This document shows, one piece after another, positions 35,064 to 49,290 of a stretch of 64,000 nucleotides of DNA. Position 1 is the stretch's first letter; each line of letters opens with the position of its first letter. Where the stretch lies: positions 62,001-126,000 of IMG/VR virus record IMGVR_UViG_3300032116_000035. The stretch is one strand, 5' to 3'. This stretch comes from a virus. The notes beneath the pieces are model-generated. The model had not been told where the DNA came from and ran no database searches. It saw only the letters and a program-made list of their open reading frames with translations. A program made the translations under genes and the position numbers.

Positions 35064-35095
35064 AACACTGTGATGAATTGATTTGGAGATGTCAA

Positions 35096-35681: not shown

Positions 35682-35703
35682 ACCAGTCAAAAATGCTCAA
35701 AAA

Positions 35704-36298: not shown

Positions 36299-36299
36299 C

Positions 36300-36706: not shown

Positions 36707-36731
36707 CAATCCTCCAGTTTTCAGCGATAAT
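36703..36731 (+). promoter_or_regulatory. Early-type sigma-70 promoter 4
   Basis: TTGACA, 17 bases, GATAAT, then ccgttgagagag. It begins inside the stop codon of the lipoprotein. Confidence 0.7.
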
Positions 36732-36766
36732 ATCCCCGTTGAGAGAGAAAACAAGGAATTATCAAA

Positions 36767-36964: not shown

Positions 36965-36968
36965 TATA

Positions 36969-37142
36969 ATGAAATTTGAATCAAACAAAGTTTTTATTGT
37001 AATTGATATGTCTGAGGGTATGGGACCTAGAACGATCCTACGTGTATTTGCCGACTATGATTCCGCACTGTATTATGGTGAAGGACTAGTGGTAGATGGT
37101 GTTATCAATGAGTTTGATGTATATGAGCGTGAGGTGTACTGA
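36969..37142 (+). CDS. Small protein of unknown function
   Basis: A 57-residue ORF (KVFIVIDMSEGMGPRTILR, SALYYGEGLVVDG), four bases after the upstream stop. Alpha/beta, unknown. Confidence 0.45.
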   Translation: MKFESNKVFIVIDMSEGMGPRTILRVFADYDSALYYGEGLVVDGVINEFDVYEREVY

Positions 37143-37145
37143 ACC

Positions 37146-37184
37146 GCATTATATTGCATGTGGTGAGGATGCATTATATTGCAT
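37146..37184 (+). repeat. Direct repeat in intergenic space
   Basis: GCATTATATTGCAT occurs at 37146 and again at 37171. The stretch 37143-37344 holds no convincing gene, only this repeat and a promoter. Confidence 0.5.
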
Positions 37185-37289
37185 CCGCAAACGCACTATT
37201 TATGGCGTGCTGGAGGAGCGTGTGGCAGCGGCCTACTAAATGTTGCGATATTCGCACTGCACCGCACTACACCTAGTAGCACCAGGCGC

Positions 37290-37318
37290 TTGACAATGCC
37301 CACCCTGGCTGCTATAAT
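37290..37318 (+). promoter_or_regulatory. Early-type sigma-70 promoter 5
   Basis: Perfect TTGACA and TATAAT with a 17-base spacer; followed by a cggag ribosome site for 37345. Confidence 0.75.
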
Positions 37319-37344
37319 GCCGTTTTCAGTGACGGAGAACCACG

Positions 37345-37506
37345 ATGACAAAATTGCAACTACTCAAGCAACAATTGCAGGATAAGCAAGACCTGGCACT
37401 GGTTGTCAGAAAAGAAATAACAGAACTGAAAGAGGCTATCCGTGATGCCCGCCTGGCCGAAGCCTGTGGTTGTGAGATATGCCTTGCTGAACTTGCAACA
37501 CTATAA
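37345..37506 (+). CDS. Small coiled-coil protein
   Basis: A 53-residue ORF: Gln/Lys-rich helix (LQLLKQQLQDKQDLALVVRK) ending with CGCEICLAE. Unknown. Confidence 0.45.
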   Translation: MTKLQLLKQQLQDKQDLALVVRKEITELKEAIRDARLAEACGCEICLAELATL

Positions 37507-37538
37507 GCCGAGTTCAAATTTGAACTGCCACAAAGTGG

Positions 37539-37567
37539 TTGACAAAGCCCGCCCATTCCGCCATAAT
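37539..37567 (+). promoter_or_regulatory. Early-type sigma-70 promoter 6 with upstream palindrome
   Basis: TTGACA, 17 bases, CATAAT. Preceded by the perfect palindrome AGTTCAAATTTGAACT at 37511-37526 and a small CCAC-AAA-GTGG hairpin, a layout like the promoter stem-loop cassettes of T4-like phages. Confidence 0.75.
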
Positions 37568-37599
37568 CTAACCGTGATGAGATGATTTTGGAGATTGAG

Positions 37600-37686
37600 A
37601 TGATTGCGATTTTGATACTGTGTGCTGTGATTGCTGTGTGGGGTGTTCTGGCTGCTGCACCTGGTGCTGTTACTACTCTGGGTTAA
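37600..37686 (+). CDS. Tiny membrane peptide
   Basis: A 28-residue ORF (MIAILILCAVIAVWGVLAAA) with a tttggag site after promoter 6. Confidence 0.45.
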   Translation: MIAILILCAVIAVWGVLAAAPGAVTTLG

Positions 37687-37690
37687 TAAA

Positions 37691-37783
37691 ATGGAAACGA
37701 TTGAAATTGTGTTCTGTATAGCCGCTCTGGTGGGTGGTGTGTATATTGTTATTGATGCAATGATTGATAGGGGTGAACTGTAA
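37691..37783 (+). CDS. Tiny membrane peptide
   Basis: A 30-residue hydrophobic ORF (IEIVFCIAALVGGVYIVID), sharing one base with the next start (TAATG). Confidence 0.45.
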   Translation: METIEIVFCIAALVGGVYIVIDAMIDRGEL

Positions 37784-38043
37784 TGAGAACGAAAACATTA
37801 GTTCCTGGCCTGAAAAATACCGATGAGGTAATGATCCGATTTTGTGATTTTGACCTGCGGGTGGGTATGACCGTAAAGCAAGCGTTAAGCGGTTTTGTGG
37901 GTATAAATGGGCTGGCAGTGGAAAAAGCATTGAAGGCTCTAGGTGCTGCCAGGCGTGATCCTGGTGCTGCTGGAGTGGCTGCCGTGGGTCTAGCGGGATG
38001 CTGGAACGGCGTGGCACTGCAAGTTGATTATTACGCACCATAA
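37783..38043 (+). CDS. Small protein of unknown function
   Basis: An 86-residue ORF with strand pattern VMIRFCDFDLRVGMTVKQAL and an Ala/Gly-rich middle. Unknown. Confidence 0.45.
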   Translation: MRTKTLVPGLKNTDEVMIRFCDFDLRVGMTVKQALSGFVGINGLAVEKALKALGAARRDPGAAGVAAVGLAGCWNGVALQVDYYAP

Positions 38044-38058
38044 TTGCCGAATAACTGG

Positions 38059-38087
38059 TTGACAGACTTCCTGCACGGTGCTATAAT
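38059..38087 (+). promoter_or_regulatory. Early-type sigma-70 promoter 7
   Basis: TTGACA, 17 bases, TATAAT, followed by tgtgtggtgattgaaaaggag. Confidence 0.75.
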
Positions 38088-38117
38088 GCCTGTGTGGTGA
38101 TTGAAAAGGAGATTGTG

Positions 38118-38282
38118 ATGTATGCCTGTGGTGAGAGAAAATTCAAGACACTGAGAGCCGCTGTGGCTTTTGCCAAAAAAGAGTTTGTTCGGACTGGTGT
38201 GGTGTTAGGTATTGAGCCTGTGGTGGTGTTGAACAAAGAACCTGGCTATATTGCTTATCTTGCAAAAGGAATGACACTATGA
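38118..38282 (+). CDS. Small basic protein
   Basis: A 54-residue ORF (ERKFKTLRAAVAFAKKEF) after an aaggag site; overlaps the next gene as ATGA. Confidence 0.45.
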   Translation: MYACGERKFKTLRAAVAFAKKEFVRTGVVLGIEPVVVLNKEPGYIAYLAKGMTL

Positions 38283-38413
38283 TTATCCGCCGTGATACCA
38301 TTAATGAGATTGCAACACTGCGATACCTTGGCTACCCTGTGTGGCGTATTGCTGCCCTGCTGAACATTGCCGTGGGTGATGTAGCAGAGGCCATCAAAAC
38401 CTGGAGACTGTAA
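38279..38413 (+). CDS. Tiny helix-turn-helix protein
   Basis: A 44-residue ORF whose segment ATLRYLGYPVWRIAALLNIA then VGDVAEAIKTW has the spacing of a resolvase/sigma-type HTH. Possible DNA-binding regulator; too short for certainty. Confidence 0.5.
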   Translation: MIIRRDTINEIATLRYLGYPVWRIAALLNIAVGDVAEAIKTWRL

Positions 38414-38586
38414 TGAAAGCACAATTCACTGAGGCCGATGTAGCCGAAGCCACTAAGGGCATGGGTGCTACACTGTGCAAACCACGTAAGGCCAAAAAGC
38501 CAGTATGCCGTGCAAAGGCCAGTAAAGGCTTTGTGAAGGGCAGCGGTGGCTTTGCTGCTGGGTACCCTGGAAAGGCCTTTGCATAA
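38413..38586 (+). CDS. Small basic protein
   Basis: A 57-residue Lys/Ala/Gly-rich ORF (KPRKAKKPVCRAKASKG), TAATG-linked on both sides. Nucleic-acid binding is plausible. Confidence 0.4.
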   Translation: MKAQFTEADVAEATKGMGATLCKPRKAKKPVCRAKASKGFVKGSGGFAAGYPGKAFA

Positions 38587-38795
38587 TGAAAAAGGCACAA
38601 TTCAGTGATGCTGAGGCAGTGGCGGCAGCCGACGAATTCAGCACCTACATGGCCGCACGTACTGTGGTGGCAGGTGGAAAAAATGGTGATGTGACACTGT
38701 ACGGTGAAAACCCCAATGTGCGTAAGCCGCCAGTGATTAATGTACATGATGAGGATGAGGATATCAATGGGCTATTACAAGAACTTAGTAATTGA
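38586..38795 (+). CDS. Small acidic protein
   Basis: A 69-residue ORF with an acidic C-terminus (HDEDEDINGLLQELSN). Its first residues (KKAQFSDAEAVAAA) echo the previous gene (MKAQFTEADVAEAT), suggesting they share ancestry at the N-terminus. Confidence 0.45.
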   Translation: MKKAQFSDAEAVAAADEFSTYMAARTVVAGGKNGDVTLYGENPNVRKPPVINVHDEDEDINGLLQELSN

Positions 38796-38913
38796 GGTGC
38801 TGGAGTTGAATGACGCCGGCCTTGGTGTGATGGCCATTGCCGACAGGCTAGGGCTTGCTGCTATCACTGTGGCTAATGTGCTGGAGATGTATGGGCGCCC
38901 TGAGGGTGCATGA
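38767..38913 (+). CDS. Tiny helix-turn-helix protein
   Basis: A 48-residue ORF (GLGVMAIADRLGLAAITVAN) with an HTH-like helix-turn-helix spacing similar to the ORF at 38279. Overlaps the upstream gene by 29 bases. Confidence 0.45.
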   Translation: MGYYKNLVIEVLELNDAGLGVMAIADRLGLAAITVANVLEMYGRPEGA

Positions 38914-39073
38914 CACTACAAGGCAGTATATTGTGGTGTATAGGGTGAAAGTGATGAATGGTATAGAAAAAAGGGATTCCTTAAAGGAACATGCTATTTC
39001 AAAGCAACCTTATTGACAGTGAAATCGCCGACCTGCCACTGAGTCGCACTAAAATTTTTTTTGGAGGTATATT

Positions 39074-39280
39074 ATGTACAAAACCCGACAAGCCACTGAA
39101 CGCATTTTAGAACTCGTTGAGGATGGTCTGCTGGATCGTGACACCGTGATTATGGCGTGCCTCAAGTATATGTCCGAAGATGATGTGAAGGACATGGCAC
39201 ATGCCAATGAATTCTTTCTGGATGATGAAGACGAAGACCTTGACGAAGACCTTGACGAAGACCTTGATGAGGATGAGTGA
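39074..39280 (+). CDS. Small protein with acidic repeat tail
   Basis: A 68-residue ORF: helical N-terminus (ATERILELVEDGLLDRDTV) and a tail of three DEDL repeats encoded by the tandem GACGAAGACCTT. Overlaps the next gene as TGATG. The 160 bases before it hold only very short frames and no clear promoter. Confidence 0.5.
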   Translation: MYKTRQATERILELVEDGLLDRDTVIMACLKYMSEDDVKDMAHANEFFLDDEDEDLDEDLDEDLDEDE

Positions 39281-39540
39281 TGCCACTAACCCTTGAACTG
39301 CCCACCATTGAGGAAACACTGGATGCGGGTGAAGCGGTAATTGGTGAAGCAATTATCACACAACCGCTGCCACCGCTTCCCGCTGAGGTACCTTCTCTCC
39401 CGAACTATGGTGGTGAAATGCTGGTGCTGGCGGTGCTGGTGACCATTGTCTTTATGCTAATACGTGCTATGATGACACTACTCCCTTATGTGGTAAGTAT
39501 TGTTGTCGGAGTTGCATTATTGAAATACTTTGTACTATGA
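39280..39540 (+). CDS. Membrane protein
   Basis: An 86-residue protein with a Pro-rich N-terminal part (QPLPPLPAEVPSLP) and two transmembrane helices (MLVLAVLVTIVFMLIRAM and LLPYVVSIVVGVALL). Unknown. Confidence 0.5.
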   Translation: MPLTLELPTIEETLDAGEAVIGEAIITQPLPPLPAEVPSLPNYGGEMLVLAVLVTIVFMLIRAMMTLLPYVVSIVVGVALLKYFVL

Positions 39541-39680
39541 TAACAATACTTGCTGGAATACTAATCTTTCTCTTTGTGAATCTTTTGATAACACTCTGGC
39601 TTCGTTATCATAATGGTAACGATGGGTGGCTGGAGGTCTATCGTCGGAGTGGTGGTAAGGTGGTTGACAAAGGTCCTTGA
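39537..39680 (+). CDS. Small membrane protein
   Basis: A 47-residue ORF with an N-terminal helix (ILAGILIFLFVNLLITLW) and a polar tail. Its end overlaps the next promoter. ATGA-coupled. Confidence 0.45.
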   Translation: MITILAGILIFLFVNLLITLWLRYHNGNDGWLEVYRRSGGKVVDKGP

Positions 39681-39692
39681 TTCGCTTATAAT
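39664..39692 (+). promoter_or_regulatory. Early-type sigma-70 promoter 8
   Basis: TTGACA, 17 bases, TATAAT, then catgttgattgatatggag. The -35 lies in the upstream coding region. Confidence 0.75.
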
Positions 39693-39722
39693 GGATGCAT
39701 GTTGATTGATATGGAGAAGGTA

Positions 39723-39974
39723 ATGTTTACACTATGGAAACATAACAGGAATTTCACTTCTACTGCATTATACGTAAATATCAAAAAAGAAACAGAGAAA
39801 GCCATTCAGTTTGAGGCTGCTGACAATCCGAAGTACACCTTCTGGTTCCCCAAGAAAGCGGTGAAGTTTGAGGAGAACGAAGGATCGGTGATGGCGACTA
39901 TCGCTAATTGGTGTACTCCTGGTGAGTGGTACTTCAAAGCAGCGGATCGTTATGCAAATTACTACAAACGGTAA
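39723..39974 (+). CDS. Small protein of unknown function
   Basis: An 83-residue beta-rich protein (STALYVNIKKETEKAIQFE, YTFWFPKKAVKFEE). Start at 39723 after tggag. Unknown. Confidence 0.5.
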   Translation: MFTLWKHNRNFTSTALYVNIKKETEKAIQFEAADNPKYTFWFPKKAVKFEENEGSVMATIANWCTPGEWYFKAADRYANYYKR

Positions 39975-39977
39975 TGC

Positions 39978-40006
39978 TTGACAAAGTGGCGGAGTTCGGT
40001 TATACT
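39978..40006 (+). promoter_or_regulatory. Early-type sigma-70 promoter 9
   Basis: TTGACA, 17 bases, TATACT, then agtctgttgagtgag. Confidence 0.75.
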
Positions 40007-40036
40007 GTAGTCTGTTGAGTGAGAAATGAGGTTATC

Positions 40037-40357
40037 ATGAAAGCAATATTCTTTACACAGGTCTATGAGAACTATGCGGTCCGTGAAGACGGTACGATTG
40101 GTACGGGTGCTGATGCTTACTTTAAGGCCAAGGGTGGTGATGAGTATGTCGTACTGAATGTGGACAAAACCCAAATGTCTCGTATACTGGCAGAGGTTCG
40201 TGCCAAGGTTGAGGTCTCAAATGATTACTTTAAGGAAACCGTGGTAGATTTTCAGTTGGTTGAGGATGACTACCTGACCGAGTATGAACGAAGTCAGTTG
40301 GAGTACGATGGTCGTGTCGTTTATTCACCGAAAGAACTTGAATTGGAGTTTGCATAA
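40037..40357 (+). CDS. Conserved small phage protein
   Basis: A 106-residue ORF (AIFFTQVYENYAVREDG, RILAEVRAKVEVSNDYF). Start ATG 40037 after gagg. TAATG-linked to the next gene. Unknown function. Confidence 0.5.
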   Translation: MKAIFFTQVYENYAVREDGTIGTGADAYFKAKGGDEYVVLNVDKTQMSRILAEVRAKVEVSNDYFKETVVDFQLVEDDYLTEYERSQLEYDGRVVYSPKELELEFA

Positions 40358-40656
40358 TGTCTGATTTGGCTACTGCACTGATTGGTTTCAAAGATAACAT
40401 TGTCCGTGACTATGAATCTCGGTTTGAGAATCCAAACGGTGAACGATTTGGTATTGAATTTGAAGAGGGTTCAAAATACGTCAAGGTCGTGTCGGTGTCC
40501 TGGGGTTCACGGTCGGTTCACTCGTTCGTAGAGAAAGCAACCGGTAATATCTGGAAAGCCGCTTCATGGAAATCTCCCGCTCGGAACTTTGTGCGTGGTA
40601 ATGTTTTTGATTCCGCCTCGTATACCAATCGCCTTTCGTGGACTGGTGTGGTATAA
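40357..40656 (+). CDS. Conserved small phage protein
   Basis: A 99-residue protein (RFGIEFEEGSKYVKVVSVSW, SVHSFVEKATGNIWKAASW). The strand-rich pattern with a KATGNIWKAAS segment recurs in phage genomes. Unknown function. Confidence 0.55.
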   Translation: MSDLATALIGFKDNIVRDYESRFENPNGERFGIEFEEGSKYVKVVSVSWGSRSVHSFVEKATGNIWKAASWKSPARNFVRGNVFDSASYTNRLSWTGVV

Positions 40657-40901
40657 TGAGGGAATTCAAGTGGGAACGCTATGGTGACAAATACTATTAC
40701 TATGATTCGCTGACAGGTAAGATTATCGGGTCAGTGAGCAAGATTGCACTCCAAGAAGTTTGGATTGCACTTGTCTATACAGGCGAATACTCCTTTACAC
40801 TCCAGGATGAAAAACACCTGGGGCAGTATATCAATTTAGAATTTGCAAAACGTGCGGCCGAATTCTTTTGGGAACGTGAAAGTCGCACACTACTGGAGTG
40901 A
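40656..40901 (+). CDS. Small protein of unknown function
   Basis: An 81-residue protein starting at ATG 40656 in TAATG (MREFKWERYGDKYYYYD). Resembles a small beta-rich domain (GKIIGSVSKIALQEVW). Unknown. Confidence 0.5.
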   Translation: MREFKWERYGDKYYYYDSLTGKIIGSVSKIALQEVWIALVYTGEYSFTLQDEKHLGQYINLEFAKRAAEFFWERESRTLLE

Positions 40902-40904
40902 ACT

Positions 40905-41078
40905 ATGTTTAAATCGTTTAATGTAGCAAAACTAAAAGCCGCTCTTACCTACCTGTGGATTGGTTTGATGATTCTCTGCCTCTTTGTGGGTAGAGTTGAT
41001 TTGAGCATCTTTGCGGTGCTGATGCTGATTCTCATGGAACTGGAGAAACTGAACGGTAACTTGAAGAATGCGTCCTGA
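40905..41078 (+). CDS. Small membrane protein
   Basis: A 57-residue ORF with two hydrophobic helices (LTYLWIGLMILCLFVG, LSIFAVLMLILMEL). Unknown. Confidence 0.5.
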   Translation: MFKSFNVAKLKAALTYLWIGLMILCLFVGRVDLSIFAVLMLILMELEKLNGNLKNAS

Positions 41079-41481
41079 ACTGGATAAAGAACTCTGCGAC
41101 CGCTTTCCCGAAATCATGGCCGAACGAAATATGTCGGTCATGAATTCGTGCATGTCCTGGGGCTTTGAACATGATGACGGTTGGTATCATTTGCTGAATT
41201 CTGCCATGCGCCTCGTACAGTCGCATATTGACATATCTAAGCGGCGTGGCGTAGAAGTACCACAAGTGGTGTTTGAGCAAGTCAAAGAGAAATTCGGTAT
41301 GTTAAACATCTATCATCGTGGTGGTGATGAATACACCGATGGTGTGCTACGCATGGCTGAAGAGATGAGCCGCCATACCTGTGAGGTTTGTGGTGACGTT
41401 GGACATCCAAATGATACAGGCTGGATTCGTACACTCTGTATTGAACATCGGAATGAACACGAAGAGAGAATGAAATGTTAA
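41068..41481 (+). CDS. Conserved phage protein with C-terminal zinc motif
   Basis: A 137-residue protein with helical N-terminus and CEVCGDVG...TLCIEHRNEH at the C-terminus, which could bind zinc (Cys, Cys, Cys, His). The GFEHDDGWYHLLNSAM segment recurs widely in phage and prophage proteins. Unknown function. Confidence 0.55.
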   Translation: MRPELDKELCDRFPEIMAERNMSVMNSCMSWGFEHDDGWYHLLNSAMRLVQSHIDISKRRGVEVPQVVFEQVKEKFGMLNIYHRGGDEYTDGVLRMAEEMSRHTCEVCGDVGHPNDTGWIRTLCIEHRNEHEERMKC

Positions 41482-41624
41482 TGTTGTTAATCAATGTTGT
41501 TTTGGCTGGTTTGTTTTGGAGTGCCTGTACCATAGCGGTTGACGAAGGCCGACCTGGTTGGGCATGGGCATATTTGTTTGTATCGGCTTGGAATGGTGCA
41601 GCGGCACTATCATCTATTTTTTGA
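41475..41624 (+). CDS. Small membrane protein
   Basis: A 49-residue ORF with two hydrophobic segments (LLINVVLAGLFWSACT, AWAYLFVSAWNGAAAL). Overlaps the upstream gene by seven bases. Confidence 0.45.
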   Translation: MLMLLINVVLAGLFWSACTIAVDEGRPGWAWAYLFVSAWNGAAALSSIF

Positions 41625-41635
41625 GGAGAAGTAAC

Positions 41636-41797
41636 ATGGTCAAAGAAGCAATTTTGTTTTTCGTTTTCATGGTGTTTTTTATTGGTGCATTGTGTTTCAC
41701 CTCAATCTATGAGGCTACGATGCGACAAGAGTGTAGAGAACTGGCCATGCAACAAAGATATTCGCCCGTAGAAATTCAAGTGATGTGTAAACTGTAA
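41636..41797 (+). CDS. Small membrane protein
   Basis: A 53-residue ORF with one transmembrane helix (ILFFVFMVFFIGALCFTSIY) and a short tail with two cysteines. Strong gaggag site. Confidence 0.5.
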   Translation: MVKEAILFFVFMVFFIGALCFTSIYEATMRQECRELAMQQRYSPVEIQVMCKL

Positions 41798-41806
41798 GGA
41801 AAAATC

Positions 41807-42250
41807 ATGGCTCAATGGATCATTCACCCTAGTTGGAAAAAGTCGCTGATTGAACGCCAGTATTATCATAAGGACAATAATACATTTATGACAGAAACGG
41901 GTTGGCGTTGGGGCTCGTTTGAAGTTGAAACCGAAGATGAAAACGTACCAACGATCAGTGCCGGTGACAATCTGTGGGATTGTGGCTATGATGTTCAATT
42001 AATTGAAACATCTGATGGCTGTTGGGAAACTCACGACATGGATGATTGTGACGAAGAAACTCAACAATGGCTAGAAGAGTTTTTTGAAGATGACAATAGC
42101 TATTATGATTTAGAAGAACAAGAAGATTGGGTTCAAGGCGATTCTGAAATGATCATTGATTGTGATCCAGTCTTTGAGCGTGTTGATGGTCCCAATGCTG
42201 GTAAACGCTATGATGTTGACGGTAATGAAATTGTGAAGGGTGCAGAATAA
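41807..42250 (+). CDS. Acidic phage protein
   Basis: A 147-residue very acidic protein (WLEEFFEDDNSYYDLEEQED). Charge is compatible with a nucleic-acid mimic. Shares a base with the next gene. Unknown. Confidence 0.5.
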   Translation: MAQWIIHPSWKKSLIERQYYHKDNNTFMTETGWRWGSFEVETEDENVPTISAGDNLWDCGYDVQLIETSDGCWETHDMDDCDEETQQWLEEFFEDDNSYYDLEEQEDWVQGDSEMIIDCDPVFERVDGPNAGKRYDVDGNEIVKGAE

Positions 42251-42525
42251 TGGTCACAATTGTAAAACATGAATGGCATCAAGTCGATGAGCAGTATCAC
42301 ATGGAACTTGGTGAAGATTTGCTGAGTGAAATTTATCCTGATTTGGATGACGATGAACTTGAGGTAAAACTCAATCAAATTGAATCTGGTGAAATTGATA
42401 TCACTGAAGTAATTAATGATGCATATCACAATGATGTGGAACTTGAATGGGACCACCACTACAGTGATTGTTGGACTGCCCGCAAGGGTGGCTATGATGT
42501 TACCTATGAACTAGGGAATGATTGA
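42250..42525 (+). CDS. Acidic phage protein
   Basis: A 91-residue acidic protein (YPDLDDDELEVKLNQIESGE), perhaps partner of the preceding one. Unknown. Confidence 0.45.
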   Translation: MVTIVKHEWHQVDEQYHMELGEDLLSEIYPDLDDDELEVKLNQIESGEIDITEVINDAYHNDVELEWDHHYSDCWTARKGGYDVTYELGND

Positions 42526-42893
42526 TGGGGTACGGTAAACACTCAAATAGTTTTCAAGGCGACTATAAGCGTGTGCTGACAGTTTGTTCGGCCAACATGC
42601 TACGGTCGCCTACAATGGCACACATATTATCGGCTGAACCATATAACTTCAATACACGGTCGGCTGGCACGGAATCTTATGCATTGATTCCTGTCACGGA
42701 AGATTTGTTGTTGTGGGCTGATGAGGTCGTTTGTGCTGATACCGAACATGCATTATGGGTACGTGGTAAAATGATGGAGTGGGTGATAGACAAACCAATT
42801 ATTGATTTGGAAATTCCGGATCATTTTGAGTATCGTGATACCAAATTGATTAGACTTATCAAGGAGCGTTATGAACAACGAACTGCTGACTGA
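42525..42893 (+). CDS. Low-molecular-weight phosphatase-like protein
   Basis: A 122-residue protein with VLTVCSANMLRSPTMAHILS, which carries the C-x5-R phosphate loop (CSANMLR) followed by S-P typical of LMW tyrosine phosphatases, and a later VCADTEHA strand. It lacks an obvious D-P general-acid motif, though EIPD near the C-terminus could serve. It might dephosphorylate host proteins or act on arsenate (inference). Confidence 0.6.
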   Translation: MGYGKHSNSFQGDYKRVLTVCSANMLRSPTMAHILSAEPYNFNTRSAGTESYALIPVTEDLLLWADEVVCADTEHALWVRGKMMEWVIDKPIIDLEIPDHFEYRDTKLIRLIKERYEQRTAD

Positions 42894-43101
42894 CATTGCC
42901 AGACAAACTGGTGGTTCATTTTTTGTGGATGTCTTCAAAACACACCAGGAAAGATATGCTCTCCAGTTGTTGTCAGAAGTATATCAAGTGTTTCAAAAAC
43001 AGCAATTTGACGGATATGCAATAGACTTCTGGGATGACATTGTACAGCATTTCCAACTTGACAACACTGAGGTTGAAAAGTTGTCAAAAAGAAATGGTTG
43101 A
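42871..43101 (+). CDS. Small protein of unknown function
   Basis: A 76-residue helical protein with an aaggag site, overlapping the phosphatase gene by 23 bases. Its 3' end contains an inverted repeat (TTGACAAC/GTTGTCAA) that sits just before promoter 10. Confidence 0.5.
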   Translation: MNNELLTDIARQTGGSFFVDVFKTHQERYALQLLSEVYQVFQKQQFDGYAIDFWDDIVQHFQLDNTEVEKLSKRNG

Positions 43102-43126
43102 CAGAGTATCGCAGTGCCGCTATAAT
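43098..43126 (+). promoter_or_regulatory. Early-type sigma-70 promoter 10
   Basis: TTGACA, 17 bases, TATAAT, then acctgttgatgataattatatggag. Confidence 0.75.
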
Positions 43127-43160
43127 TATACCTGTTGATGATAATTATATGGAGGTTGTG

Positions 43161-43550
43161 ATGGCTTACGTATCTCAGGAATTGAAGTCTAAGTTGGCTC
43201 CGAAGATCAAGGCGATTTGCAAAAAGTATGGCGTCAAAGCCAGCCTTGCGGTTCGCAATCATTCTACGCTGGTGCTGAATGTAAAGGCTGGTAAAGTGGA
43301 CTTTATCAATGATTTTGGTGATACTCCTGAAACACGTGCCGATGCTGAGAAGTTCGGTATTCAGGTGAATCCTTATCACTACAAAAGTCACTTCAATGGC
43401 GATTCGTATTTCTTTCTGTCAGAAGTTATTCCCGCAATGAATGCTGGTAATTGGGATGAGTCTGATGCACAAGTTGACTACTTTAATGTCGGTTGGTATG
43501 TTGATGTGAATATCGGTAAGTGGAATCAACCTTACGAATTGGAGGCGTAA
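43161..43550 (+). CDS. Conserved phage protein (LPD29-like)
   Basis: A 129-residue protein: ELKSKLAPKIKAICKKYGVK, then LVLNVKAGKVDFINDF and a C-terminal VDYFNVGWYVDVNIGKW. This pattern belongs to a widespread phage and plasmid domain of unknown function that I associate with large polyvalent protein domains. Promoter 10 is directly upstream. Confidence 0.6.
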   Translation: MAYVSQELKSKLAPKIKAICKKYGVKASLAVRNHSTLVLNVKAGKVDFINDFGDTPETRADAEKFGIQVNPYHYKSHFNGDSYFFLSEVIPAMNAGNWDESDAQVDYFNVGWYVDVNIGKWNQPYELEA

Positions 43551-43551
43551 T

Positions 43552-43719
43552 ATGGATCAGTTGGATAAAATGATTGCTTACGAAGCAGGTGAGTTGCATT
43601 TTGATGAAACAATTGAATTTTTTCAAGAGTTGATTGATTCAGGTCTGGTGTGGCATTTGCAAGGTTCGTATGGTCGTGCCGCACGTGCCTTAATTGATGA
43701 GGGTTGGTGCATACAATGA
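43552..43719 (+). CDS. Small conserved phage protein
   Basis: A 55-residue ORF (KMIAYEAGELHFDETIEFFQ, WHLQGSYGRAARALID). The LQGSYGR motif recurs in small phage proteins of unknown function. Follows the upstream gene by one base. Confidence 0.6.
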   Translation: MDQLDKMIAYEAGELHFDETIEFFQELIDSGLVWHLQGSYGRAARALIDEGWCIQ

Positions 43720-44102
43720 TGAGTGAAGCAAGAATCGTATCGAATCGTATTCGTACACCTGACGGTACGATTCTTGAATCCATGCACCGCCACGATTATG
43801 TAACTTACCTTGATGCAAATGGTAAAGAATACATGGTTGATGGTGGATTAGATTATCTGCGCCGCAATGTACATGATGATGCACCATATGAGGAACTGTC
43901 GGTGTATGATGATGCACTACATGTGGAGATTCGTAATGTATTCAAATGGGGAACACGTGGTAAAGATGGTAAGCAACCGCTGAAATATGTGGTGCTAAAA
44001 GACTTGACAACGGAACACATTGAGGCTATACTGGATACACAGTCACATATTAGTGACTACATCCGAAAAATATTTTTAAATGAATTAAGTATTCGGGAAT
44101 AA
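43716..44102 (+). CDS. Conserved phage protein
   Basis: A 128-residue protein (RIVSNRIRTPDGTILESMHR, MVDGGLDYLRRNVHDDAPYE, LTTEHIEAILDTQ). The set of motifs is one I recall from T4-like aquatic phages; function unknown. ATG at 43716 overlaps the upstream stop; 43719 is also possible. Confidence 0.6.
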   Translation: MMSEARIVSNRIRTPDGTILESMHRHDYVTYLDANGKEYMVDGGLDYLRRNVHDDAPYEELSVYDDALHVEIRNVFKWGTRGKDGKQPLKYVVLKDLTTEHIEAILDTQSHISDYIRKIFLNELSIRE

Positions 44103-44120
44103 AATTTTATATATAGTATT

Positions 44121-44216
44121 ATGAACAAACTAGCACACATTACGAAGGAATGCCCACAGTATCGCACATTTAGCGATAATGGTTCATGGGCGCCCGCATC
44201 GGAGGTTTGTGTATAG
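44121..44216 (+). CDS. Possible tiny protein
   Basis: A 31-residue ORF (MNKLAHITKECPQYRTFSDN) with no strong ribosome site, ending at the terminator region. Weakly supported. Confidence 0.25.
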   Translation: MNKLAHITKECPQYRTFSDNGSWAPASEVCV

Positions 44217-44242
44217 ATTGTAGTTTAGTTCTAACTGTATAC

Positions 44243-44276
44243 AAACCCCGAAGTCCAAAAGATTTCGGGGTTTTTT
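44243..44276 (+). terminator. Rho-independent terminator before the tRNA cluster
   Basis: AAACCCCGAA pairs with TTCGGGGTTT (10 bp) and a T-run follows. Another imperfect hairpin (GTTTGTGTATAG/CTGTATACAAAC) lies directly upstream. Confidence 0.8.
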
Positions 44277-44284
44277 GTTTTTAT

Positions 44285-44363
44285 CTGGGTGTATTGTCAG
44301 CCTGGTCAGACGGCTCGCCTTGGAAGTGAGAGGACGCAGGTTCAAATCCTGCCACCCAGACCA
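44285..44363 (+). tRNA. tRNA-Pro(UGG)
   Basis: Acceptor ctgggtg/cacccag, loop CTTGGAA, encoded CCA. It lies between the terminator and the cluster promoter. Confidence 0.85.
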
Positions 44364-44410
44364 AGTTGCTAAAGTAATAATGTTGTAGAAAAACAACGGC
44401 AAAAAAGTAG

Positions 44411-44439
44411 TTGACAGAGTTTCGGATTTTCACTATAAT
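44411..44439 (+). promoter_or_regulatory. Promoter of the main tRNA cluster
   Basis: TTGACA, 17 bases, TATAAT, then attctgttgagttgattgag like the early array. Preceded by a TGTTGT/ACAAC hairpin. About 155 bases of leader precede the first tRNA. Confidence 0.8.
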
Positions 44440-44569
44440 AGATTCTGTTGAGTTGATTGAGAAAAAAAACAGAAGTGAGCGTTCTGTCTCTGAAAAGAGT
44501 TTAGCAAGGGTTTGATACGGTAATGCCTTCGGTATCATGTAACAGGCCTGTCCTTGTTAGTTCTTGAAT

Positions 44570-44583
44570 TGTTCTTTAAAAAA
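44570..44583 (+). promoter_or_regulatory. boxA-like antitermination element
   Basis: TGTTCTTTAAAA with an extra A-run in the leader resembles the rRNA boxA (TGCTCTTTAACA), especially the betaproteobacterial form. It lies 11 bases before tRNA-Glu. Confidence 0.55.
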
Positions 44584-44593
44584 TTTGTGAGAT

Positions 44594-44668
44594 GCACCCA
44601 TCGTCTAGTGGTCAGGACATTGCCCTTTCACGGCAGTAACACCGGTTCGAATCCGGTTGGGTGTACCA
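44594..44668 (+). tRNA. tRNA-Glu(UUC)
   Basis: Acceptor gcaccca/tgggtgt, loop CTTTCAC, encoded CCA. First tRNA after the leader. Confidence 0.9.
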
Positions 44669-44678
44669 GTTATATTAT

Positions 44679-44755
44679 GGGTGTGTAACTCAGTTGGCTA
44701 GAGTATCAGACTTTTAATCTGAGAGTCGTGGGTTCGAATCCCACCGCACCTACCA
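44679..44755 (+). tRNA. tRNA-Lys(UUU)
   Basis: Acceptor gggtgtg/cgcacct, loop CTTTTAA, encoded CCA that also starts long-stem RNA 1. Confidence 0.9.
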
Positions 44756-44832
44756 TATTGAAGCACATTGGTTCTAAGGGTTGTTCCGAGGATAATTCAA
44801 CTCCAATGGAGTCCCAGTGTGTTTCAATATGG
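44753..44832 (+). ncRNA. Long-stem RNA 1 between tRNA-Lys and tRNA-Asp
   Basis: CATATTGAAGCACATTGG pairs over 18 bp with CCAGTGTGTTTCAATATG; the pairing extends into the CCA end of tRNA-Lys and the GG of tRNA-Asp. The interior has GTTG/CAAC and ACTCC-AAT-GGAGT helices. No coding frame. See long-stem RNA 3 for the same stem. Confidence 0.65.
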
Positions 44833-44908
44833 CATGTTAGCATAGTTGGCCTAATGCGCCGCCCTGTCACGGCGGAGACCACGGGTTCGAATCCCGTACA
44901 TGTCGCCA
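44831..44908 (+). tRNA. tRNA-Asp(GUC)
   Basis: Acceptor ggcatgt/acatgtc, loop CTGTCAC, encoded CCA. Confidence 0.9.
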
Positions 44909-44914
44909 GAATGA

Positions 44915-44989
44915 TGCTCAGTAGATCAGCGGTAGATCAGCGGACTGTTAATCCGTGTGTCGTAGGTTCGATCCCTACCTGAGCAGCCA
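44915..44989 (+). tRNA. tRNA-Asn(GUU)
   Basis: Acceptor tgctcag/ctgagca, loop CTGTTAA, encoded CCA. Confidence 0.9.
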
Positions 44990-45113
44990 TATTAGATTTG
45001 CAGTTTGTAAGCCATGGGCTTGATCATGCCTGAGTAACTATGTAAATAAACGGTAAAGCCGGCCGGACATTCCGTTGAGCATAGCAAATAGTGCAGACTG
45101 CAATTCTAATATT
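44988..45113 (+). ncRNA. Long-stem RNA 2 between tRNA-Asn and tRNA-Gln
   Basis: ATATTAGATTTGCAGTTTG pairs with the reverse complementary strand ending CAATTCTAATAT, with one T-T mismatch and wobble pairs. Interior helices: AAGCC-ATG-GGCTT, CTATG...CATAG and ACGG...CCGT. About 125 nt, multi-branched, non-coding. Confidence 0.6.
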
Positions 45114-45115
45114 GT

Positions 45116-45189
45116 TGGGGATTAGTTAAATGGTATAACCACGGATTTTGATTCCGTTGTCGTAAGTTCGATTCTTACATCCCCTGCCA
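45116..45189 (+). tRNA. tRNA-Gln(UUG)
   Basis: Acceptor tggggat/atcccct (first pair open, as usual in tRNA-Gln), loop TTTTGAT, encoded CCA. Confidence 0.85.
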
Positions 45190-45196
45190 GTAATAT

Positions 45197-45280
45197 GGGT
45201 AACGAGCAGCATTGGTGACTGCACCTGACTGTAAATCAGACGCTTCGGCATACTTGGTTCGACTCCGAGGTTACCCACCA
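45197..45280 (+). tRNA. tRNA-Tyr(GUA)
   Basis: Acceptor gggtaac/gttaccc, loop CTGTAAA, long variable arm, encoded CCA. Confidence 0.9.
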
Positions 45281-45287
45281 AGTTTTA

Positions 45288-45362
45288 CGGTCTTTAGTAA
45301 AATGGATATTACGGGTGGCTACGGACCACCAAGTGGGAGTTCGATTCTCTCAGGACCGGCCA
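45288..45362 (+). tRNA. tRNA-Arg(ACG)
   Basis: Acceptor cggtctt/aggaccg, loop CTACGGA, encoded CCA. A34 would need host TadA to read CGN codons. Confidence 0.85.
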
Positions 45363-45454
45363 TATTGAAACATATTGCAAAGACCGCTGAGTCGTTCTGC
45401 ATTGCTGGAGTCTTCTATGAAGAGGTGTCGCAAAGGCAGTATGTTTCAATATGG
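45360..45454 (+). ncRNA. Long-stem RNA 3 between tRNA-Arg and tRNA-Ala
   Basis: CATATTGAAACATATTGC pairs over 18 bp (one G-T) with GCAGTATGTTTCAATATG, extended by the CC of the tRNA-Arg CCA and the first GG of tRNA-Ala. The outer nine base pairs are the same as in long-stem RNA 1 while the interior differs (CTTC-TAT-GAAG hairpin). Non-coding. Confidence 0.65.
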
Positions 45455-45528
45455 GGGATTGGTGCTAATTGGGAACACATGTGCTTTGCAAGCATGAGTA
45501 AGCAGTTCGAATCTGCTATCCTCCACCA
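45453..45528 (+). tRNA. tRNA-Ala(UGC)
   Basis: Acceptor gggggat/atcctcc, loop TTTGCAA, encoded CCA. Confidence 0.85.
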
Positions 45529-45538
45529 AAGTTTTATT

Positions 45539-45613
45539 GCCGGTTTAGCTCAGTGGTAGAGCATCCGCCTTGTAAGCGGGAGGTCGTCAGTTCGAATCCG
45601 ACAACCGGCACCA
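45539..45613 (+). tRNA. tRNA-Thr(UGU)
   Basis: Acceptor gccggtt/aaccggc, loop CTTGTAA, encoded CCA. Confidence 0.9.
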
Positions 45614-45619
45614 GACTAT

Positions 45620-45695
45620 CGCAGAGTATGGAAGTGGTCATCCGCTTGGTCTCATAAGCCGAGAATCGCAGGTTCGAATCCTGCCTCTGCAACCA
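45620..45695 (+). tRNA. tRNA-Met(CAU), initiator-like
   Basis: Acceptor cgcagag/ctctgca with a C1-A72 mismatch and purine11-pyrimidine24 in the D-stem, both initiator hallmarks; loop CTCATAA; encoded CCA. The anticodon stem has two of the three usual G-C pairs. Confidence 0.8.
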
Positions 45696-45708
45696 TTACA
45701 GGTGAAAC

Positions 45709-46176
45709 GTGAAAAAAGAAATTGATGTGAACGAAGTGGCCGCATTTCTTGATACATGTGGTCCTGATACAAAAGTGTATGTTGGTGCCGATTCTGAACG
45801 ATTTCAAATTGGTGGTGAATGGTACGCCGATTACATTCTTGCTGTTGTTGTTCACATTGATGGTCGTCACGGTTGCAAGATATTTGGTGCTGTACAACGT
45901 GAACGTGACTTTGAACAAAAGAAAAGCCGGCCACGTTTTCGTTTGATGAATGAAGTATACAAAGTGGCCGATTTGTATTTGAAACTCTATGATGCAATAC
46001 CACATGATATTCAGATTCATTTGGATATTAACCCAAGTGAAATGCACGGTTCAAGTTGTGTGGTAAATGAAGCGATTGGTTATATACGTGGCACATGTAA
46101 TGTGATACCATTGATAAAACCAAAAGCATTTGCAGCAAGTTATGCAGCAGATAGGTTTAAAAGTTTAGTAGCGTAG
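45709..46176 (+). CDS. RNase H-like protein (DUF458/YkuK type)
   Basis: A 155-residue protein in the tRNA cluster starting at GTG. VYVGADSE and YILAVVVHID are the first acidic strand of an RNase H fold, IQIHLDINPSE the third, and GSSCVVNEAIGYI the last. This matches the YkuK-type RNase H-like family of unknown function. Its stop codon overlaps the start of tRNA-Gly by one base, so it is transcribed with the tRNAs; a role in tRNA processing is conceivable. Confidence 0.7.
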   Translation: MKKEIDVNEVAAFLDTCGPDTKVYVGADSERFQIGGEWYADYILAVVVHIDGRHGCKIFGAVQRERDFEQKKSRPRFRLMNEVYKVADLYLKLYDAIPHDIQIHLDINPSEMHGSSCVVNEAIGYIRGTCNVIPLIKPKAFAASYAADRFKSLVA

Positions 46177-46250
46177 CGGGTATAATTCAGTGGTAGAATG
46201 TTTCCTTGCCAAGGAAAATGTCGTCAGTTCGAGTCTGACTACCCGCTCCA
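46176..46250 (+). tRNA. tRNA-Gly(GCC)
   Basis: Acceptor gcgggta/tacccgc, loop TTGCCAA, encoded CCA. Confidence 0.9.
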
Positions 46251-46254
46251 GTAT

Positions 46255-46328
46255 TCCGGTGTAGTATAATGGCAGTGCGGCGGTCTCCAAAACCGTTAGT
46301 GGGGGTTCGATTCCCTCCACCGGAGCCA
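46255..46328 (+). tRNA. tRNA-Trp(CCA)
   Basis: Acceptor tccggtg/caccgga, loop CTCCAAA, encoded CCA. Confidence 0.9.
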
Positions 46329-46340
46329 GTATTTTTTGGC

Positions 46341-46414
46341 GTGGCCATGTTGTAATGGTAGCAACCTAGACTGTGACTCTGGTAGTTCGGGTTCGAATCC
46401 CGATGGTCACCCCA
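46341..46414 (+). tRNA. tRNA-His(GUG)
   Basis: Acceptor gtggcca/tggtcac, discriminator C, loop CTGTGAC, encoded CCA. The base before position 1 is C and not the usual G. Confidence 0.85.
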
Positions 46415-46423
46415 AAAAGTATT

Positions 46424-46499
46424 GGTGCTTTAGCTGATGTGGTCATAGCGGCGGTTTGAAGAGCCGTTGAAGTTGGTTCGATTCCAACAGGCACCACCA
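46424..46499 (+). tRNA. tRNA-Phe(GAA)
   Basis: Acceptor ggtgctt/aggcacc, anticodon stem gcggt/gccgt with loop TTGAAGA, encoded CCA. Confidence 0.8.
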
Positions 46500-46500
46500 T

Positions 46501-46574
46501 TGTCCTGTAGTTAAATGGTATAACTGTCGATTGATAATCGACCATTACAAGTTCAATTCTTGTCGGGACAACCA
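46501..46574 (+). tRNA. tRNA-Ile(GAU)
   Basis: Acceptor tgtcctg/cgggaca, loop TTGATAA, encoded CCA. Confidence 0.9.
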
Positions 46575-46578
46575 GAAT

Positions 46579-46653
46579 GGTAGTGTAGCATAATGGTAGT
46601 GCGCCACCTTCATACGGTGTCAGGTGTAAGTTCGAATCTTACCACTACTACCA
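46579..46653 (+). tRNA. tRNA with CAU anticodon (Met or Ile2)
   Basis: Acceptor ggtagtg/cactact, loop TTCATAC, encoded CCA. With two other CAU tRNAs present, this could be the lysidine-modified tRNA-Ile2 reading AUA. Confidence 0.8.
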
Positions 46654-46654
46654 A

Positions 46655-46730
46655 GCGCCGGTGACGGAACGGTATACGTGTTGGTCTTAGAAACCAAATT
46701 TTGAGAGTTCGAATCTCTCCTGGCGCACCA
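46655..46730 (+). tRNA. tRNA-Leu(UAG) with short variable loop
   Basis: Acceptor gcgccgg/ctggcgc, anticodon stem ttggt/accaa, loop CTTAGAA, T-stem gagag/ctctc, encoded CCA. Only five bases (ATTTT) separate the anticodon and T stems, whereas bacterial tRNA-Leu normally has a long variable arm. Confidence 0.8.
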
Positions 46731-46755
46731 ATATAAGTAGCGTGTGAGGCGATGT

Positions 46756-46830
46756 GCATCGTTAGTTCAGCGGTAGAATCCCTGCCTTACAAGCAGGTTG
46801 TCGGTGGTTCGAATCCATCACGATGCACCA
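46756..46830 (+). tRNA. tRNA-Val(UAC)
   Basis: Acceptor gcatcgt/acgatgc, loop CTTACAA, encoded CCA. Confidence 0.9.
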
Positions 46831-46835
46831 ATAAT

Positions 46836-46913
46836 GCAACGGTGGCAGAGTGGTCCAATGCAAGGGACTGCAAATCCCTAAAGCCGTCAGTTCGAATCTG
46901 ACCCGTTGCTCCA
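46836..46913 (+). tRNA. tRNA-Cys(GCA)
   Basis: Acceptor gcaacgg/ccgttgc, loop CTGCAAA, discriminator U, encoded CCA. Confidence 0.9.
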
Positions 46914-46919
46914 GTTTTA

Positions 46920-47009
46920 GGAAGTGTGGCAGAGTCCGGTTTATTGCACCTGTCTTGAAAACAGACGAACAGAAATGTTCCGTGAGTTCGAATCTCACCG
47001 CTTCCGCCA
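46920..47009 (+). tRNA. tRNA-Ser(UGA)
   Basis: Acceptor ggaagtg/cgcttcc, loop CTTGAAA, long variable arm, encoded CCA. Confidence 0.9.
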
Positions 47010-47017
47010 AAGGAGAT

Positions 47018-47143
47018 ATGTTGATAACACAAATCATACTGACAATTTTAATGTATTGGGTGTTGATGGGTATCAGCGTGGCGGCAATTATGGCACTTTT
47101 TTATGGGTTGGCAGTAATTTTAGGAAGATTGGCAGAGAGGTAA
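47018..47143 (+). CDS. Small membrane protein overlapping a tRNA
   Basis: A 41-residue ORF with an aaggag site, two hydrophobic helices (ILTILMYWVLMGISVAA, IMALFYGLAVILG) and a basic end. The last seven codons lie inside tRNA-Ser(GCU), so tRNA excision would remove the stop codon from the message. Confidence 0.5.
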   Translation: MLITQIILTILMYWVLMGISVAAIMALFYGLAVILGRLAER

Positions 47144-47209
47144 TGCAGCGGATTGCTAATCCGTCACTGTGAAAACGGTGCAGAGGTTCGATTCCTCTAT
47201 CTTCCGCCA
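47123..47209 (+). tRNA. tRNA-Ser(GCU)
   Basis: Acceptor ggaagat/atcttcc, loop TTGCTAA, long variable arm, encoded CCA. Starts inside the small membrane gene. Confidence 0.9.
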
Positions 47210-47210
47210 C

Positions 47211-47239
47211 TTGACAAGCAAATTTTTCTGTAGTATACT
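47211..47239 (+). promoter_or_regulatory. Sigma-70 promoter after the tRNA cluster
   Basis: TTGACA, 17 bases, TATACT, seven bases before the ATG at 47247, implying a very short or absent leader. Confidence 0.65.
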
Positions 47240-47246
47240 GTTTCCT

Positions 47247-47405
47247 ATGAGTAAAAAATCACAAAAGTTGCAAAAACCACGAAATTTTGTTGCTAAAGAC
47301 TTGTTCACGCCGAAGTTTCGCATGAAAGTTGAGCATTCGGCGACAAAAATTCATAACCGAGCAGTTGAAAAACAAAACTTTAGGAAAATTTATGCCATCT
47401 TCTGA
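47247..47405 (+). CDS. Small basic protein
   Basis: A 52-residue Lys/Arg-rich ORF (MSKKSQKLQKPRNFVAKDLF). Small basic proteins with RNFVAK near the start recur in T4-like phages. Unknown. Confidence 0.5.
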   Translation: MSKKSQKLQKPRNFVAKDLFTPKFRMKVEHSATKIHNRAVEKQNFRKIYAIF

Positions 47406-47826
47406 TGAAAAAGTGCAACAAATTGAGTCCGGAACAATTTCTGGCGACGAAATGGTCAAGTTTGACGGTTTTTACTTTGTTCCTGACTATGATGACTACG
47501 ATGAAAACTACAAATTAGCATTTTTCAACTTCAAAGAAGAGTGGACAATGGCAAAACCCATTGAAAAGTCAGAAATGGGCTACAAATATCATATGGCATT
47601 CTTTAAAGAAGACGAAGAAGGTATGCCACAGTTTGATGATGCGTTTGAAGCGATACTTTCTGACCCAATTGTGTACATAAAAAACCTTGTTGGCTCAGGA
47701 ATATCAGGTTGCATTGTTAAAAAGACAGAAACATCAGAAAATTGGTGGGTTGAGTATCTTGATTTTATAACAAACGGTAAATTTAAGCAAAAAGTGAACG
47801 AAGCACTCAAATCTTTAACGGAGTAA
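47392..47826 (+). CDS. Protein of unknown function
   Basis: A 144-residue soluble protein beginning MPSSDEKVQQIESG after an agga site; FDGFYFVPDYDDYDE and FKEEWTMAKPIEKSE are notable aromatic-acidic patches. Overlaps the basic ORF by 14 bases. Confidence 0.5.
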   Translation: MPSSDEKVQQIESGTISGDEMVKFDGFYFVPDYDDYDENYKLAFFNFKEEWTMAKPIEKSEMGYKYHMAFFKEDEEGMPQFDDAFEAILSDPIVYIKNLVGSGISGCIVKKTETSENWWVEYLDFITNGKFKQKVNEALKSLTE

Positions 47827-47829
47827 ATT

Positions 47830-48123
47830 ATGAATACAAATGTTTTTTCTGGTAACAGTAAAGATGCAAAACGTGGTCGCAAGTGGCTGATTGGTTTGCT
47901 TGAAGAACGATCTGTTGAAATCGTTTTTACGAAAAAAGACGGAACTGAACGTACAATGAAATGCACATTGATGGAAGACTATCTTCCTGAAACAGCAGGT
48001 TCAGAAAAAACAAAAAATGATGAAGCACTTGCTGTTTATGATTTAGAAAAAGAAGGCTGGCGCAGTTTTCGTTGGGATTCAATCAAGCAAGTGAATTTTT
48101 CATTGGAGAGTGAAGATGCCTAA
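47830..48123 (+). CDS. Small phage protein (SH3-like candidate)
   Basis: A 97-residue protein: VEIVFTKKDGTERTMKCTLM followed by LAVYDLEKEGWRSFRWDSI. This KKDGTERxMxCTL pattern and the WRSFRWDSI ending recall a family of small phage proteins near replication genes. Function unknown. Confidence 0.55.
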   Translation: MNTNVFSGNSKDAKRGRKWLIGLLEERSVEIVFTKKDGTERTMKCTLMEDYLPETAGSEKTKNDEALAVYDLEKEGWRSFRWDSIKQVNFSLESEDA

Positions 48124-48406
48124 GTATATCGTTGAGCAATTATCTGCTTTTCGTAATGTTTATGTGATTGAGGCGGATAACGAAGAAGAAGCCGTCAAAA
48201 TTTCTGAATATGCTGATGACAATTGGCAAGAATGGCTCGGTAATCTGAAAATTGACGTAAATGAATACACCGATGAACGTATCGCTTACTTCAAACACAA
48301 AGATTATTATTGGGCAGGCGTAACATACAAAGATAAAGATGGGTATGTCGCATATCATCACCCAAATGGTGAAGATGTGGAACGAAAAGAGATTCTCATC
48401 AAATAG
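48116..48406 (+). CDS. Small protein of unknown function
   Basis: A 96-residue alpha/beta protein (YIVEQLSAFRNVYVIEADNE, EEAVKISEYADDNWQEWLG). ATG 48116 follows ggagag; a GTG at 48110 is less likely. Confidence 0.5.
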   Translation: MPKYIVEQLSAFRNVYVIEADNEEEAVKISEYADDNWQEWLGNLKIDVNEYTDERIAYFKHKDYYWAGVTYKDKDGYVAYHHPNGEDVERKEILIK

Positions 48407-48411
48407 TTTAT

Positions 48412-48485
48412 GCGGGATTAGTTTAATGGTAAAACTTGAGATTTCCAATCTTACGTTGTCAGTTCGATTCTGACATCCCGCTCCA
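48412..48485 (+). tRNA. tRNA-Gly(UCC)
   Basis: Acceptor gcgggat/atcccgc, loop TTTCCAA, encoded CCA. Stands 1.2 kb away from the main cluster. Confidence 0.9.
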
Positions 48486-48496: not shown

Positions 48497-48691
48497 ATGA
48501 ACAAATCTTGGACCTTAGAAGTAAAACAACACGAAGATGGTGATTACTTTATTGAATTTCCTGATGAAGTGCTAGCCGAAGTTGGTTGGGCAGAAGGAGA
48601 CACACTGAAGTGGATTGATAACGGCAATGGTTCGTGGTCGCTGAAAAAATTAGATAAGAATCAAGAAAATACTGAGTCTCCAGAGAAGTGA
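48497..48691 (+). CDS. AbrB/SpoVT-like DNA-binding protein
   Basis: A 64-residue protein: WTLEVKQHEDGDYFIEFPDE, then VLAEVGWAEGDTLKWI and SWSLKKL, the swapped-hairpin AbrB pattern (strand, P-x-E-x-L, G-W-x-x-G-D). Such proteins are small dimeric DNA-binding regulators, often antitoxins. No toxin partner is adjacent. Confidence 0.7.
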   Translation: MNKSWTLEVKQHEDGDYFIEFPDEVLAEVGWAEGDTLKWIDNGNGSWSLKKLDKNQENTESPEK

Positions 48692-48732: not shown

Positions 48733-49161
48733 ATGAGTTTGAAAGGCACAAAAACTGCTGAGTGCTTGAAAGAGGCTTTTGCAGGTGAATCAATGGCAAA
48801 CCGCCGTTATCTTTATTTCGCAAATCAGTGTGATATTGCAGGTGAGAACGATTTAGCATCATTGTTCCGTTCTACAGCAGAAGGTGAAACTGGACACGCA
48901 CATGGTCATATGGAATATCTCATTGAAGGTGGTGCAGGAGAACCTGGCACAAACATGCCAGCAAAAAATGCACGACAAATGTTAGAGGCCGCTATCGCTG
49001 GCGAAACGCACGAATACTCTGACATGTATCCAGGTATGGCAAAGACTGCACGTGAAGAAGGCTTTGATGAAGTAGCCGATTGGTTTGAAACACTTGCGAA
49101 AGCAGAACGTTCACATGCCAATCGTTATGCAAAAGCATTAGAAAAACATCTTTCAGAATAA
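48733..49161 (+). CDS. Rubrerythrin-like diiron protein
   Basis: A 142-residue four-helix ferritin-like protein. Diiron ligands appear as [41 protein letters not shown] and [14 protein letters not shown] (Glu and E-x2-H pairs). The C-terminal rubredoxin domain of full rubrerythrins is absent. Family members reduce peroxide, so protection of the infected cell is likely (inference). It lies 14 bases before pqqA and probably shares its transcript. Confidence 0.85.
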
Positions 49162-49175
49162 TAAGGAGAAGTAAC

Positions 49176-49250
49176 ATGGCATGGACTACACCTACAGCAA
49201 ATGATATGCGTTTTGGTTTCGAAATCACAATGTACATCGCAAATCGTTAA
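49176..49250 (+). CDS. pqqA: Coenzyme PQQ precursor peptide PqqA
   Basis: A 24-residue ORF with a strong aaggag site. It reads MAWTTPTANDMR then FGFEITMYIANR, matching PqqA, whose features are W-x2-P near the start, D-x-R-x-G-F/L-E, and the conserved Glu and Tyr spaced E-x3-Y (here E16 and Y20). In PQQ synthesis, PqqE joins these two residues and PqqF/B/C/D complete the cofactor. No other pqq gene is seen here, so host enzymes would be needed. It ends just before a terminator. Too short for standard gene finders; homology of such a short peptide carries some risk. Confidence 0.8.
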   Translation: MAWTTPTANDMRFGFEITMYIANR

Positions 49251-49258: not shown

Positions 49259-49290
49259 AAAAGCGGCTACCAAGCCGCTTTTCCTTTTTT
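49259..49290. terminator. Bidirectional terminator between convergent genes
   Basis: AAAAGCGGCT pairs with AGCCGCTTTT (10 bp) around ACCA, followed by a T-run on the plus strand and preceded by an A-run, so it works in both directions between pqqA and the minus-strand genes. Confidence 0.8.

Follow-up and report, generated by a model that had tools for sequence, protein, structure and literature searches.

Does a gene of 75 bases in a phage genome encode PqqA, the precursor peptide of pyrroloquinoline quinone (PQQ), and what could a phage gain from the precursor alone? The question is raised by a locus in the window, the whole 64,000-nucleotide stretch analysed here, which a preliminary description made from the letters alone had read as a phage-encoded pqqA.

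The gene and the phage that carries it

Translation of the open reading frame returned every hallmark that had been claimed for the peptide, namely W3, P6, the D10-M-R12-F-G14 block, E16 and Y20, the last two in the E-x3-Y spacing of the residues that become PQQ, and its 24 residues fit the PqqA size of about 22-29. Scoring against PqqA HMMs, which the description had proposed as a check, gave significant values that exceed both curated cut-offs nearly twofold: 38.9 bits for Pfam PqqA PF08042 (E 8e-10, cut-off 21.1) and 39.2 bits for the NCBIfam equivalog model TIGR02107 (E 4e-10, cut-off 20). In a six-frame search of the 133,235-bp virus record, of which the window is bases 62001-126000, this gene is the sole PqqA match (E 9.6e-10), and the same search returned none in the control genomes (0/14). 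The match is far beyond chance, and the two models, together with the many phages that hold relatives of the gene (see below), confirm its identity as a phage-encoded PqqA.

The ribosome site, the terminator just after the gene and the neighbour 14 nt before it are likewise present as had been described (Table 1); terminator-like sites number 2 for 0.7 expected. The neighbour is termed rubrerythrin-like rather than rubrerythrin because it holds the diiron domain without a rubredoxin domain and scores 116.9 bits against a cut-off of 200 for the NCBIfam rubrerythrin equivalog. No promoter-like site was found on the + strand in the 14-nt gap, and the two genes are probably co-transcribed.

Table 1. 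Features of the pqqA locus (positions in the window).
Feature	Coordinates	Strand	Basis
64-aa protein, phage family phrog_661 (function unknown), upstream neighbour outside the claimed function	48497..48691	+	family match
rubrerythrin-like diiron protein, 142 aa, no rubredoxin tail	48733..49161	+	Pfam PF02915 5e-25
Shine-Dalgarno AAGGAG, 7 nt before ATG	49163..49168	+	sequence; similar sites ahead of most phage relatives
pqqA, 24-residue PQQ precursor peptide MAWTTPTANDMRFGFEITMYIANR, then stop	49176..49250	+	translation, both PqqA models, purifying selection
intrinsic terminator, common to relatives with and without pqqA	49259..49282	+	stem, then T-rich tail

The carrier is a real phage genome and not a host contig, as indicated by the virus record, by T4-type replication genes shared with the OM43 phage Melnitz and by 26 tRNA genes. 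We assign it to the Melnitz-like T4-type phages from its protein matches to Melnitz, 24 in the part of Melnitz compared, among them helicase and thymidylate synthase (61% identity each), DNA polymerase (48%) and ribonucleotide reductase (52% and 47%). Melnitz also carries a lone pqqA but differs in its setting: the gene is flanked by tRNA genes, close to baseplate genes, and no rubrerythrin is annotated next to it. A near-identity DNA search with 25 kb of the window returned no close sequenced phage. The tRNA genes (32158-48485) cover all 20 amino acids, most of them in one array (44285-47209), and a 539-aa protein at 10970-12586 partially matches the toxin-labelled phage family phrog_353 (E 4e-11). 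We found in this phage no convincing homologue of pqqB-E, no PQQ-domain protein and no PQQ-dependent dehydrogenase domain.

Compared with bacterial PqqA (PF08042, TIGR02107), the peptide agrees in length, in W3, P6, R12, G14, E16 and Y20 and in its start and end; its closest bacterial counterparts, from Thauera, Oxalobacteraceae and Comamonadaceae, share 19-20 of the 22 residues from Trp3. It differs in standing alone in a phage behind a rubrerythrin-like gene, with no pqqB-E nearby; the presence of pqqB-E close to pqqA is common in bacteria but not strictly defining, as solitary bacterial pqqA exist. The resemblance to these three groups points to a host that is probably one of the Burkholderiales outside the Methylophilaceae, although a peptide of 24 residues gives no more than a hint. 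Its EITMYIANR type occurs in other Burkholderiales, and the EVTMYVMNK type in most Methylophilaceae phages and in a 1.28-Mb methylotroph-like genome; because the peptide is not of the latter type, PQQ may serve a different dehydrogenase in the host. The link to methanol that had been proposed is well supported for the Methylophilaceae phages and at most tentative for the window's phage.

A proposed supply of precursor to host enzymes

PqqA is consumed in making PQQ. In the reading that we favour, with a probability of about 0.78, the phage adds PqqA as a substrate for host PqqD and PqqE and so sustains PQQ for the host's dehydrogenases. The gene, presumably expressed during infection, would yield the ribosomal precursor, which host PqqD would bind in the infected cell; host PqqE would cross-link Glu16 and Tyr20, and host PqqB and PqqC together with a protease would complete the cofactor. 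The resulting rise in PQQ would maintain the cofactor supply of PQQ-dependent dehydrogenases (for methanol, alcohol or sugar) during the shut-down of host gene expression, to the presumed benefit of the phage.

The precursor alone would be a cheap means to this end, since each PQQ costs one PqqA and additional solitary pqqA genes are kept beside a single pqqBCDE by many bacteria that make PQQ. Methylophilaceae genomes hold 3-12 pqqA copies with usually one pqqBCDE (PMC4109929), a chromosomal excess of pqqA over pqqBCDE sets that resembles the viral case in kind if not in location. This multi-copy habit suggests that the peptide can be limiting, the situation in which PqqA would be worth supplying by itself. 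A sample of 200 genomes from one order contains 46 with pqqA, and 35 of the 46 show two or more matches. Solitary pqqA genes without pqqB in the flanking DNA were observed at Burkholderiales loci L147, L171, L195, L200, L203 and L229, with a sensor-kinase-like gene nearby in L171 and L229.

The 1.28-Mb genome, whose extent and content suggest a streamlined member of the Methylophilaceae, encodes a XoxF-type dehydrogenase, one pqqE above cut-off and three solitary copies of pqqA for MWTTPAATEMRFGFEVTMYVMNK, letter for letter the peptide of phage P19250A. Its XoxF is 87% identical to a full-length XoxF methanol dehydrogenase in the 72-kb viral record IMGVR_UViG_3300025120_009955 (L059, L431), where it lies ~6 kb before pqqA, so that a single virus appears to target the same pathway from both sides.

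How far the precursor alone would raise PQQ may vary. In Acetobacter pasteurianus, pqqAB raised PQQ by 29% and the whole operon eightfold (PMC7936290); PqqA is therefore not always the main limit, and its supply need not raise PQQ much. An experiment cited in PMC9851590 is reported to have converted PqqA added to a G. oxydans extract into PQQ at 70-80%.

Relatives in cultured and metagenomic phages

A tblastn search of 50,697 annotated phage records matched 12, of which nine are isolates on Methylophilaceae (Melnitz x4, P19250A, Venkman, MEP301, MEP401 and MEP402). These nine are the Methylophilaceae phages that surfaced in the annotated collection; others in the NCBI taxonomy (MEP431-434, Venkman EXVC038S, HIM624-A, phiMB624-A), which may or may not belong to the collection, appear in no match list examined. 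Venkman, MEP301 and Melnitz belong to three distinct viral groups (PMC10580990). The only genuine match outside the Methylophilaceae phages among these records is a metagenomic podovirus (Manatee Spring); tblastn returned no pqqA match in MW202697, a metagenomic phage resembling MEP401. Two records named ‘Acinetobacter phage MD-2021a’ were rejected, the larger because an entire pqqABCDE operon lies there amid chromosomal genes and the second, a 13-kb contig, on the shared organism name; the 24 kb read of the former (CAKLQF020000010.1, L004) are bacterial chromosome with modABC, ppk and pqqABCDE, and the record seems to be mislabelled.

In none of the nine cultured phages is the gene annotated as PqqA: it either has no annotation or lies opposite an antisense ‘hypothetical protein’ that overlaps it. 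Antisense calls over pqqA in Melnitz (L002 8001-8072) and MW202481 (L005 2116-2187) are probably false. A scan of IMG/VR with a degenerate DNA pattern added at least 120 contigs with pqqA, and in one viral relative (L040) the gene was found by whole-record search. The guess that such genes may be common and missed is borne out by these counts, and the open reading frame proved to be present in related phages. Four further phage copies, with L040 left out of the count, and one bacterial copy also pass the curated models.

Among the matches listed, the 119 viral copies are short open reading frames that have an ATG close by and, in most cases, a clear ribosome site, and that end 22-23 residues from Trp3; with the cultured phages and the window, the listed IMG/VR contigs form about 26 clusters by shared proteins. 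No pqqB, C, D or E lies beside any of the ~120 listed viral copies in their flanking DNA, whereas pqqB adjoins 93 of the 119 bacterial loci that carry a motif of this kind. The 20 viral records taken whole hold exactly one pqqA each. An alphaproteobacterial-looking PqqA (EISVGLEINCYACAEL/I) in viral contigs L053, L064, L112 and L119 perhaps marks a second host group, and this type had no match in the annotated phages.

The first IMG/VR pattern required Glu16 and Tyr20, and a second search was therefore run with both positions free. Among its listed matches, both residues are kept in 120 of 120 phage copies. This bears on the possibility that phage PqqA is a decoy, occupying host PqqD/PqqE and yielding no PQQ, so as to lower PQQ and redirect carbon or electrons. 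Competition between so short a peptide and host PqqA is conceivable, and the downstream PQQ enzymes are all absent from the phage; a decoy, however, would be free to lose the PQQ-forming residues. Phage peptides can moreover equal the host-type peptide, and a phage carrying XoxF would profit from more PQQ, which together make such a throttle very unlikely.

Selection, gain and loss

The pN/pS of phage pqqA is 0.21 over all codons and 0.29 at the codons not used to recognise the gene. As pN/pS values from motif-selected copies are partly circular, the second figure is the one to rely on, and it indicates purifying selection. Relatives were also collected through rubrerythrin instead of pqqA: 23 of 80 such loci have pqqA, in most of them within 500 nt downstream of rubrerythrin, and 57, some incomplete, do not. 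As most close rubrerythrin-bearing relatives lack it, pqqA appears dispensable in some phages. In three of these (L257-L259), whose rubrerythrin is 96% identical in protein, the rubrerythrin stop is directly followed by the same terminator, and alignment to the window shows 89 nt absent, spanning the ribosome site and pqqA. From this clean absence between the same gene and terminator, it follows that pqqA comes and goes as a minimal cassette.

A unit of ~89 nt cleanly present or absent among close relatives is also what one would expect of a passenger, a host pqqA acquired by chance and of no benefit. The constraint on codons free of the search motif, the kept ribosome sites and the retention of the gene in unrelated phage lineages argue against this, and we consider it very unlikely. 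Still less credit can be given to the idea that the peptide serves a different radical-SAM enzyme or acts as a signal, its likeness to PqqA being historical: the function of phage PqqA is a prediction from sequence, but the peptide passes an equivalog-level model, the phage peptide type tracks that of the host, and the 20 pqqA-bearing whole viral records contain no PqqE-class enzyme above cut-off. The least probable alternative, a role for PQQ outside the dehydrogenases such as antioxidant protection together with the rubrerythrin-like protein, draws on the linkage of the two genes in the window's phage family, but in the general viral set very few pqqA genes have a rubrerythrin close by (L071, L091, L128), so that it is not the usual partner of pqqA.

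Precursor supply as a possible viral strategy

Viral pqqA itself is already known: it was proposed in 2020 as an auxiliary metabolic gene of the Lake Baikal viral population VP_266, with a predicted methylotroph host (PMC7678222), and is listed in a 2026 reservoir study (PMC13188868). VP_266 is comparable, by description and not by sequence, in having PqqA in a virus, and differs from the window's phage in also encoding a methanol dehydrogenase and probably in host group. The breadth and the lone-cassette pattern appear new; in the open-access literature we found no report of pqqA across cultured methylophages, of its coming and going as a cassette or of the conservation of the residues that are cross-linked, and the published descriptions of Venkman, Melnitz and MEP401/402 make no mention of pqqA.

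Overall, we lean towards the view that a lone pqqA is near-general in phages of PQQ-dependent methylotrophs and occurs in those of some other Burkholderiales, that it was gained several times and missed as too short to annotate, and that it would control a cofactor pathway purely via substrate supply. Since pqqA is found in every Methylophilaceae phage that surfaced and in at least 120 environmental viruses, the supply of a cofactor precursor looks like a strategy common among viruses. OM43 and LD28 are examples of the Methylophilaceae, methylotrophs that abound in aquatic habitats and depend for their energy on a PQQ-containing methanol dehydrogenase. Routine supply of the PQQ precursor by their phages, if it occurs, would give viruses a direct influence on the oxidation of methanol by way of a gene overlooked in standard annotation, and a gene of 75 bases can constitute an entire metabolic adaptation.
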